From an uncultured Bacilli bacterium (lineage in GTDB: Bacteria; Bacillota_I; Bacilli_A; RF39; UBA660): a DNA stretch of 34,598 nt. The position numbers were made by a program, and so were the translations under genes. The stretch spans positions 1 to 34,598 of the forward strand of contig CANRJN010000006.1 in NCBI GenBank assembly GCA_947630945.1, given 5' to 3'. Shown here piece after piece: positions 18,034 to 20,451 of this stretch (the first letter of the stretch is position 1; every line of letters begins with the position of its first letter). The notes beneath the pieces were generated by a model. The model made no database searches. It was not told the origin of the DNA and was given only the letters and a program-made list of their open reading frames with translations.

Positions 18034-18142
18034 ATCACCAATTTTATTTTATATAAATATTTAATTATTTTAAAGTATATTTAAATTTTTTGACAGATTT
18101 TTACATATTAAATTTTATATTTTCTAATCATTTAAACCATAT

Positions 18143-18164
18143 AAAAAGAATTCATAAGAATTCC
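18143..18164 (-). terminator. terminator of the prepilin gene
   Basis: GAATTC (18158-18163) and GAATTC (18148-18153) pair across a 4-nt loop; on the minus strand they are followed by five T. Confidence 0.6.
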
Positions 18165-18169
18165 ATTTA

Positions 18170-19390
18170 TTAATGATCACAAGCATCAAAATCATTTAAT
18201 CTTGATTCTAAGTCTTCTCTATATTTTACATAAGGTTCATTTTTAAGAGCATTTGTTCCTTCAAACATTAGGCATATCCTTGTATCATCATTTACTACAA
18301 ATTTATCACTTAATTTTAGATTTGATAAATTTTCACAATTATAAAACATTCGTTCCATACCTTTGACTTTTGATGTATTAAAATTAGTTAAATCTAAATC
18401 GGTTAAATTTGAACATTCATAAAACATATCATTCATAGTTGTTACTTTTGATGTATCAAAATTACTTAAATTTAATGTTGTTAAATTTGAACATCCTGAA
18501 AACATACTCCACATAGATGTTACTTCTGATGTGTCAAAATTGCTTAAATCTAATGTTGTTAAACTTGAACATCCATCAAACATATCACTCATATCTGTTA
18601 CTTCTGATGTATCTAAATACCTTAAATCTATTGATTCTAAATTTGATAAACCAACAAATAATTCAAAACCTGAACCTGCTCTTACTCCTCCTTCTCCTCC
18701 AATTGTTACTTCATACAAACCATCACCATCTGTATCTGTCCACCACATCATTATATTTCCACTATTATCATATGTTACATCTTTACTTCCAAGGACTCCT
18801 TCTGGTACTTTACTTGTATTTGTAAATTTTAATACTTTTATCTTATTAGATTTTAATGAAGTTGCAAAGAAATATCCATAATAATCTCCGCTTTCATTCA
18901 TTCTAATATCTAGCACTGAATCGTATTGAGGGTTAACTACTATTTCTTCATTACTTCCATCACAAGATGGTACTTCTGTACTTTCTAACGCGATAGTTGT
19001 TTTTCTTGTTTTTTCACTTGTACTACTTCCTATATCTGCTATGTTTATGACTTCCCCTTCTGATACAAATTGATAATTATCATCTTTTACTGTTAAGTTT
19101 ATTACTTGTCCATTATCATTAAATTCTACATAATATTTTATATTATTTCTTCCCGTTAAATTTAATGGATTTGATGTACTACTAAAACATTTACATTCTT
19201 TATTTGATAATGAACCACTTAAATAATTTTGTTCTGCTGTCTTTACTATCTCTTGCACTTCTGTTACAAATGTATTCTCTTTTGCATTCCTAAACATTTT
19301 AAGTACATTTGGCAGTGCTATAATTACTAAAATTGCTAAGATTGCTATTACTGCTAGTAATTCTACTAATGTAAAACCTCTTTTTTTCAT
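18170..19390 (-). CDS. type IV prepilin fused to BspA-like (DUF285) leucine-rich repeats
   Basis: 406 aa. The N-terminus MKKRG/FTLVELLAVIAILAILVI is a class III prepilin leader with the peptidase cut after Gly, the conserved Glu at +5 and a long hydrophobic helix. A pilin-like region with Cys pair ECKCF follows, then an acidic stretch with DTDGDGLYEV that resembles a calcium loop. Residues about 255-375 carry four or five BspA/DUF285 repeats of about 25 aa with the pattern LDLSNFDTSxVTxMxxMFxxC. Such repeats mediate adhesion in surface proteins. Ribosome site AGAGGT. The promoter at 19427-19453 contains a (TA)n tract. Divergent from the TIR gene. Confidence 0.88.
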   Translation of the reverse strand: MKKRGFTLVELLAVIAILAILVIIALPNVLKMFRNAKENTFVTEVQEIVKTAEQNYLSGSLSNKECKCFSSTSNPLNLTGRNNIKYYVEFNDNGQVINLTVKDDNYQFVSEGEVINIADIGSSTSEKTRKTTIALESTEVPSCDGSNEEIVVNPQYDSVLDIRMNESGDYYGYFFATSLKSNKIKVLKFTNTSKVPEGVLGSKDVTYDNSGNIMMWWTDTDGDGLYEVTIGGEGGVRAGSGFELFVGLSNLESIDLRYLDTSEVTDMSDMFDGCSSLTTLDLSNFDTSEVTSMWSMFSGCSNLTTLNLSNFDTSKVTTMNDMFYECSNLTDLDLTNFNTSKVKGMERMFYNCENLSNLKLSDKFVVNDDTRICLMFEGTNALKNEPYVKYREDLESRLNDFDACDH

Positions 19391-19426
19391 TTAATTCTTA
19401 CCTCTTTTCTATTTTTCTACCCTTTT

Positions 19427-19453
19427 ATTATATCGTATATATATATATATCAA
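19427..19453 (-). promoter_or_regulatory. prepilin promoter with (TA)n spacer
   Basis: Minus strand TTGATA (19448-19453), 15-nt spacer, TATAAT (19427-19432). The spacer is almost wholly a TA tract of about seven units (19436-19450), which also runs into the -35 box. One more TA unit would give the optimal 17-nt spacing. The leader to the ATG is 36 nt with AGAGGT. Confidence 0.7.
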
Positions 19454-19473
19454 GAGGCATATTTAAATTTTTA

Positions 19474-19528
19474 CATAACCATCTACACTTTTAGATTGTC
19501 TTTTATAACAAACTTTTAAGTATAGAAA
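19474..19528 (+). repeat. dispersed 55-bp intergenic repeat, copy B
   Basis: 48 of 55 positions match copy A at 5368-5422, same strand, no gaps. Here it lies between the divergent prepilin and TIR genes, about 20 bp upstream of the prepilin -35 box. Confidence 0.75.
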
Positions 19529-19576
19529 GCACAAAAAAGAAAAGAAAAAAAGAAATTTATATCACTTATAAAAATA

Positions 19577-19604
19577 TTGAAATAATTTATAAATTTAGTA
19601 TACT
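19577..19604 (+). promoter_or_regulatory. promoter of the TIR gene, with palindrome over the -10
   Basis: TTGAAA (19577-19582), 16-nt spacer, TATACT (19599-19604). The -10 lies in a perfect 14-bp palindrome, TTTAGTATACTAAA, a possible operator. Ribosome site GGAGG follows at 19619-19623. Confidence 0.6.
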
Positions 19605-19631
19605 AAATATTAAATATGGAGGTATTATTTT

Positions 19632-19865
19632 ATGGATAGTGAAGACTCTTACCTAGGTCAATATGGTCTTGTTAAAATTATTAAAGGAAAATTTAAAGGA
19701 AGATTTGGCTATTATGATGATGATGAAATAAGTTCTAGTGGAAAAGTTAAATCTGTTATTTATTTTGGTGAAATGATGGATAATACAAAATGCTATTATA
19801 TTGATGAAGATAATATTACGAATAAATTTACTATATTAGATTTAAAAAAAGAAAAGAAGAAATAA
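19632..19865 (+). CDS. 5' part of a frameshifted TIR-domain gene (KOW-like N-terminal domain)
   Basis: 77 codons before a stop. The protein has YGLVKIIKGKFKGRFGYYDDDE, a small beta-barrel resembling a KOW-type motif, then KSVIYFGEMM and a lysine-rich end. Strong GGAGG ribosome site 8 nt upstream of ATG. A -1 shift at the A7 run (19844-19850) would join this domain in frame to the TIR domain downstream, giving about 252 aa. From memory, related TIR proteins carry this kind of N-terminal domain; this should be checked. As written, the ribosome would stop here. Confidence 0.7.
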   Translation: MDSEDSYLGQYGLVKIIKGKFKGRFGYYDDDEISSSGKVKSVIYFGEMMDNTKCYYIDEDNITNKFTILDLKKEKKK

Positions 19866-20389
19866 ATCGTAATTTATGGAATGAAATAAGTGATAGTGAA
19901 AGGTTAAAATTAATTGAAGAAAAAGAACTTATTGATTATGAAATAAATAATAGACTTGAAAATTATATTGATTCTAATAAATTAAAAAATAAACAAGTCT
20001 TTCTTTCTCATTCTTCTATGGATAAAGAAATAGTTATATCAGTAGCACTTGATTTAAATGAAAAAGGTATTACTACTTGGCTAGATGCTTTTGATATTTT
20101 ACCAGGAGAGTCAATTGTTTCAAAAATCAATCAAGGATTAAGTAATTGTGAATTTGTATTATTATTTTTATCTAAAAATTCTGTAAAATCTAAATGGGTA
20201 GAAAAAGAATGGGAATCAATTTTATGGGATGAAATAAATTCTAATAAAATTAAAATAATTCCTATAAAACTAGAAGATTGTAAAATACCTAAAATATTAC
20301 AAACAAAGAAATATATTGATTTAAGTAAAGATTATAACTATGGAATAATGCAACTTATTGATGCAATAAAAAGTTACAAATCAAATTAA
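19826..20389 (+). CDS. 3' part of the frameshifted gene: TIR domain
   Basis: This frame is open from 19826 but has no ATG until 20018, which lies inside the TIR domain, so it cannot give a full domain alone. The frame gives a charged helical linker, then QVFLSHSSMDKE (TIR box 1), TTWLDAFDILPGES and SKWVEKEWESIL. The Glu in W-x-x-x-E (E64 counted from Met at 20018) is the catalytic position of NAD-cleaving TIR enzymes. Such proteins act in antiphage defence or toxin-like NAD depletion. No ThsA or other Thoeris partner is nearby. Either it is broken, switched by slippage, or made by -1 frameshifting. Confidence 0.75.
   Translation: MYYIRFKKRKEEINRNLWNEISDSERLKLIEEKELIDYEINNRLENYIDSNKLKNKQVFLSHSSMDKEIVISVALDLNEKGITTWLDAFDILPGESIVSKINQGLSNCEFVLLFLSKNSVKSKWVEKEWESILWDEINSNKIKIIPIKLEDCKIPKILQTKKYIDLSKDYNYGIMQLIDAIKSYKSN
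19841..19851 (+). other. slippery site / homopolymer at the TIR frameshift
   Basis: TTTAAAAAAAG: a -1 slippery heptamer context (A AAA AAG) placed where the two frames overlap (19826-19862). One extra A in the tract would fuse the frames. Confidence 0.6.
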
Positions 20390-20451
20390 TATACATAAAT
20401 ATACTTTTAAAATTAAATAAATACATTTTAGTAATCTACACAAATATAACT

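Follow-up and report, generated by a model that had tools for sequence, protein, structure and literature searches.

A small number of cultured pathogens are known to switch promoters through changes in repeat length, in most cases at a single locus or at few loci. In Mycoplasma hyorhinis, the Vlp lipoprotein genes are clustered and each has its own promoter with a poly-A tract. Expression of the Vlp family is described as combinatorial (cited in PMC11868660). The fimbrial hifA/hifB promoter of Haemophilus influenzae contains a (TA)9-11 repeat (van Ham 1993 and Geluk 1998, as cited in PMC2651432). The BspA-like proteins of Candidatus Mycoplasma girerdii are associated with dinucleotide repeats, whose length variation in vivo was found by metagenomics (PMC5476646). 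Here we describe a (TA)n tract of an uncultured Bacilli bacterium that is probably a contingency switch, one of a genome-wide family of promoters standing ahead of prepilin genes; we assign this reading a probability of about 0.8. The mechanism is already known from Haemophilus hif, while the scale and the combination look new: a whole dispersed type IV prepilin-like family appears to be under repeat-length promoters in an uncultured low-GC bacterium. We found no papers on this prepilin/TA-promoter family in the open-access literature.

The promoter lies on the minus strand of the window, the 34,598-nt stretch of DNA analysed here, at positions 19453 to 19427, and reads 5'-TTGATA TATATATATATACGA TATAAT-3'. 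It consists of a good -35 element (TTGATA, 19448-19453), a 15-nt spacer (19433-19447) and a perfect -10 element (TATAAT, 19427-19432). A perfect (TA)7.5 tract of 15 nt (19436-19450) covers the end of the -35 element and most of the spacer. The G+C content is about 23%. When the window was shuffled 100 times with dinucleotides preserved, no 15-nt TA run arose by chance, and the 27-mer promoter, with up to three mismatches allowed, was likewise found in none of the shuffled sequences. The 5' untranslated leader (19391-19426, minus strand) contains an AGAGG ribosome-binding site (19401-19405), and the ATG of the prepilin gene follows the -10 element by 36 nt.

This gene (18170-19390, minus strand) encodes a protein of 406 residues with a class III prepilin signal (GFTLVE) in the N-terminal part and DUF285/LRR repeats in the C-terminal part. 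The N-methylation motif (PF07963, 2e-7) and the DUF285/LRR block (PF03382, 3e-45; about 18323-18661) were both detected. The class III signal or N-methylation motif, together with a hydrophobic helix, points to a type IV prepilin-like product, which may act as an adhesin. The first-pass annotation of this DNA had reported TTGATA and TATAAT 15 nt apart with a spacer of nearly nothing but TA, which the sequence confirms in every detail, ahead of a surface prepilin with adhesin-like repeats. PF07963 exceeded its cut-off both in the window protein and in all seven of the full-length sisters scanned. In each of three genomes, the long prepilins are 85-89% identical over the first 50 alignment columns, whereas identity over most of the remainder drops to about 20-50% in two of the genomes; in the third it is 36-81%. 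Besides DUF285 repeats, domains seen in the exposed parts are a glycine-rich one (PF12810) and an FGE-sulfatase-like one. A pilus ATPase (PF00437, 7.7e-124) and a prepilin peptidase (PF06750, 1.1e-25) are also encoded.

Like hif, this locus has a TA repeat between -35 and -10, length steps of 2 bp and a gene for a surface filament subunit. On the other hand, hif is one locus of a proteobacterium (although strain F3031 has as many as four copies of hifA), whereas about 18 promoters are dispersed over the low-GC genome studied here. The single hif tract serves two divergent chaperone-usher fimbria genes, while the present promoters are single-direction and precede type IV prepilin-like genes. 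No chaperone or usher was found among the proteins scanned, and the window prepilin has a small ORF and a TIR gene as its divergent neighbours. Also unlike hif, the promoters with TA tracts are of two distinct types. Judging from the position of the repeat and from 2-bp steps across a 17-nt optimum, the window locus would use a hif-type mechanism without being a hif locus. The resemblance to Vlp lies in a multigene surface family, in a separate repeat-controlled promoter for each gene and in combinatorial coats; Vlp differs in its poly-A tracts, lipoproteins and single cluster, where the present system has TA tracts, prepilins and genes scattered over the genome. Candidatus Mycoplasma girerdii shares dinucleotide tandem repeats attached to BspA/LRR-type surface proteins, although the effect there was read as a coding-sequence frameshift with a premature stop, whereas the tract described here is a promoter spacer.

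We then investigated the genome that carries the window (G000; 156 contigs with a total of 1.57 Mb and a completeness of about 85%). It contains about forty TA runs of at least 15 nt, many of which share a near-identical context, (G)TGCCTC-TTG-(AT)n-CGATATAAT, ahead of other prepilin genes. In this genome, a search with the strict pattern CTCTTG-N9-33-GATATAAT found 16 places, its reversed control 1 and 0, and a looser pattern, TTGATATATATA-N4-30-TATAAT, found 20 versus 0. The looser pattern is also enriched over its reversed control in two relatives, G015 (14 versus 0) and G016 (9 versus 1), but each of the remaining 15 genomes in the genus has only 0-2 matches, although similar prepilins are present there. 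Among the matches listed for a loose promoter pattern in wider genome contigs, which came from unrelated taxa, none had the family promoter itself. In total, the genome of the window has about 18-20 family promoters at dispersed loci, nearly all directly upstream of prepilin genes; a few lie so near the end of a contig that the gene is truncated or no gene is seen. The promoter alignment shows a GCCTC box abutting the -35 element (19454-19458, minus strand, in the window), which is kept in nearly all sister promoters of this type (type A), usually as (G)TGCCTC-TTGATA, and may be an activator contact. Most type A promoters have, in addition, a TGTAAAA box farther upstream, beyond the conserved (G)TGCCTC. 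A second promoter type (type B), TTGACT-TTCC-(AT)n-TATAAT-TTTCTTAGTAG, is found in G016 ahead of the same kind of genes. The same genome has three tandem short prepilin genes (G016:C5:23920-25130) whose promoters, of a TTGACA-TTTCGA-(AT)n-TATAAT type, have spacers of 17, 17 and 19 nt.

The spacers of these promoters fall into a series of 2-nt steps. In the genome of the window, the type A spacers measure 15 nt in 11 promoters (the window included), 17 nt in six and 19 nt in one; in G015, ten measure 15 nt and four 17 nt. The type B spacers of G016, with near-identical flanks, comprise four of 13 nt, ten of 15 nt, two of 17 nt and one of 19 nt. Only odd lengths occur, as expected if TA units are gained and lost whole. 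This 13/15/17/19 series on near-constant flanks amounts to a natural experiment on spacer length. All tract lengths were taken from assemblies, one per species; with tracts this short, sequencing is expected to introduce little error. Promoter orthology between the genome of the window and G015 was assigned from upstream DNA. Of five orthologous tracts compared, three are one TA unit apart (C23, 15 versus 17 nt; C19, 17 versus 15 nt; C21, 15 versus 17 nt, the length in G015 given second) and two are equal (C22, 17 nt in both; C45, 15 nt in both). In the C23 pair, the intergenic DNA aligns closely as far as the tract. In a sixth pair, the spacer on C7 of the window's genome is pure TA and 17 nt long, and its counterpart in G015 (C5) is eroded, non-repeat and 18 nt long; if our model is right, the G015 promoter would be locked. 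At G015:C5:6582, G015:C1:63661 and G015:C36:2069, erosion of the TA tract has left family promoters with a non-repeat 18-nt spacer, and these are possibly locked on.

A different repeat was seen at G000:C127:3220-3260, where TTGACA-CGTA-G11-CGTGG-TAGAAT lies upstream of another prepilin gene, itself cut by the contig end. Poly-G runs are classical slippage-prone tracts, and this G11 is the sole G/C run of at least 7 nt in the approximately 0.7 Mb surveyed. It hints at an independent repeat in the same promoter position of another prepilin.

To judge which spacing is strong, we surveyed about 0.7 Mb of regions chosen around loci in these genomes, requiring an exact TATAAT and a good -35 element. 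Promoters of non-prepilin ORFs have a spacer of 17 nt in 25 of 51 cases, of 16 nt in 9 of 51 and of 15 nt in 1 of 51, this lone case being itself a TA promoter. The prepilin promoters of the same survey comprise four spacers of 13 nt, 23 of 15 nt, 12 of 17 nt, six of 18 nt and three of 19 nt. For 15 versus 17 nt, prepilin and non-prepilin promoters differ with a Fisher p of 6e-7, in a comparison where related copies are not independent. Since 17 nt is the norm and 15 nt is almost unused among non-prepilin promoters, a 15-nt spacer is predicted to be weak and a 17-nt spacer strong. For the window gene, whose spacer is 15 nt, the prediction is weak or no expression in the majority genotype that the assembly represents.

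In the model that we favour, the (TA)n tract would form the spacer of a sigma-A-type promoter, slipped-strand mispairing would alter its length in 2-bp steps, and each change would shift the promoter between unfavourable spacers of 13, 15 or 19 nt and the favourable one of 17 nt. Each surface protein would probably be turned up or down at random as TA units come and go, and random switching at each of the 18-20 or so loci would result in a combinatorial pilus or adhesin coat. We infer slippage as the cause, an effect on transcription and on/off switching within the population from these sequence patterns. Against this model, two of the five orthologous tracts are unchanged between species, the clustering of lengths on 15 and 17 nt could also reflect selection for fixed strengths, and the differences between paralogues might have spread by gene conversion rather than by slippage. 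The first-pass annotation had proposed hif-like phase variation, with the 15-nt spacer as a weak state and a 17-nt spacer one TA unit away. The 17-nt allele does occur at sister loci, the 17-nt norm among non-prepilin promoters agrees with the proposed weak state, and the steps of 13, 15, 17 and 19 nt between paralogues, together with the three of five orthologues that are one unit apart, argue for the phase variation itself. That annotation had considered a single locus and missed the multigene system, to which its reading extends with the support of the promoter family.

The tract could instead be a fixed part of a regulated promoter, in which 15 nt holds basal expression low, an activator at the upstream box rescues it, and the different lengths set a fixed strength for each member. 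This seems unlikely to us. It would account for the (G)TGCCTC box upstream of the -35 element and the TGTAAAA box farther upstream in most type A promoters, and for 15 nt being the modal length in three species; two of the five orthologous tracts are equal. However, a fixed spacer needs no pure repeat, some non-repeat spacers of the family have a near-optimal 18 nt, and the difference at three of five orthologous loci is exactly one TA unit. Moreover, the type B promoters of G016 show the same length series without the box, and a poly-G run occupies the equivalent place ahead of another prepilin.

Still less probable is a neutral microsatellite, gathered by an AT-rich genome and copied through recent duplication and recombination of prepilin cassettes. 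The G+C content of about 23%, the near identity of the promoter copies and the gain and loss of the prepilin slot between species (see below) are compatible with such an origin. Against neutrality, the shuffled windows yielded no 15-nt TA run, the reversed patterns showed no enrichment, and 15 other genomes of the genus possess similar prepilins with no or almost no tracts; furthermore, the unrelated type B promoter has its TA tract at the equivalent place. We regard as the most improbable alternative that the tract serves mainly as flexible, easily melted DNA, or as a site for an AT-hook or nucleoid protein coordinating the whole prepilin set. TA steps do melt easily, and every member has the tract, as control by one shared regulator would require, but its phase relative to -35 and -10 is exact, its length moves by 2-bp units, and in a few relatives the promoter persists although its spacer has eroded to 18 nt of non-repeat sequence (C7 versus C5 of G015).

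We also investigated the surroundings of the window gene. The prepilin gene, the small ORF (19632-19865, plus strand) and the TIR-domain gene (20018-20389, plus strand) together occupy a variable slot (18106-20431), flanked by a phosphomannomutase-type gene and a cell-wall hydrolase gene. In two related species, the slot cargo is absent between the matching neighbours, and a remnant of 35-49 nt of the prepilin upstream region (about 19490-19538) is left in both empty slots. In G016, a different exposed domain of the family type adjoins the same neighbour gene of the slot. Thus, prepilin cassettes come and go, as the slot is empty in two relatives and has a different exposed domain beside it in G016. 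The promoter did not turn up in a search of viral contigs, which gives no indication that phages carry the prepilin cassette. The TIR-domain gene (PF13676, 1e-26) and the small ORF, which share the slot with the prepilin and are missing alongside it in the two relatives, are possibly defence or effector cargo.

In the sister species G015, a complete diversity-generating retroelement (DGR) was found at about 21.5-24 kb of contig C23, with a 145-nt template repeat, Avd and RT. Its Avd matches NF033474 at 1.9e-18, below the cut-off of that model, and PF22296 above its cut-off; its RT carries an IGNYTSQ motif. Several prepilin genes at other places in this genome have 3' ends that match the template repeat, and the differences fall at template adenines in 12 of 12 cases in the target on G015:C15 and in 17 of 18 cases in that on G015:C35. 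As in known DGR systems, template repeat, Avd, RT and adenine-specific differences, here in the 3' ends of prepilin genes, thus occur together, which hints that this element mutates the ends of some prepilins in trans. Both targets also have 15-nt TA-spacer promoters, an overlap that would tie on/off switching to targeted hypermutation within one protein family. The window gene was rejected as a DGR target, its C-terminus consisting of DUF285 repeats and not of a DGR variable region. An RT at G000:C8 was likewise rejected as a DGR RT, being group II-like with a PQGGDLSP motif, and no DGR-type RT was found in the incomplete assembly of the window's genome. Taken together, we consider it reasonably likely that surface diversification is layered in these bacteria, with about 20 dispersed prepilin-adhesin genes under their own repeat-length promoters (TA and, once, poly-G), slots gained and lost between species, and in-trans DGR mutation of some exposed ends in at least one species.

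Two further kinds of TA tract were seen. Near the starts of contigs C8, C17, C36, C39 and C110, a repeated sequence contains a TA run that varies from copy to copy within 15-18 nt and overlaps reading frames. A coding-frame switch in the signal peptide was considered for these five and dropped, as the frames are ambiguous owing to overlap with the upstream gene and to contig ends. Finally, a promoter with a 15-nt TA spacer and a leader of roughly 200 nt, without a nearby ORF, is found at G000:C1:27674, G015:C6:26990 and G017:C1:13267. This promoter is apparently kept at the matching locus in three species and possibly drives a leader RNA or a gene with a long leader.
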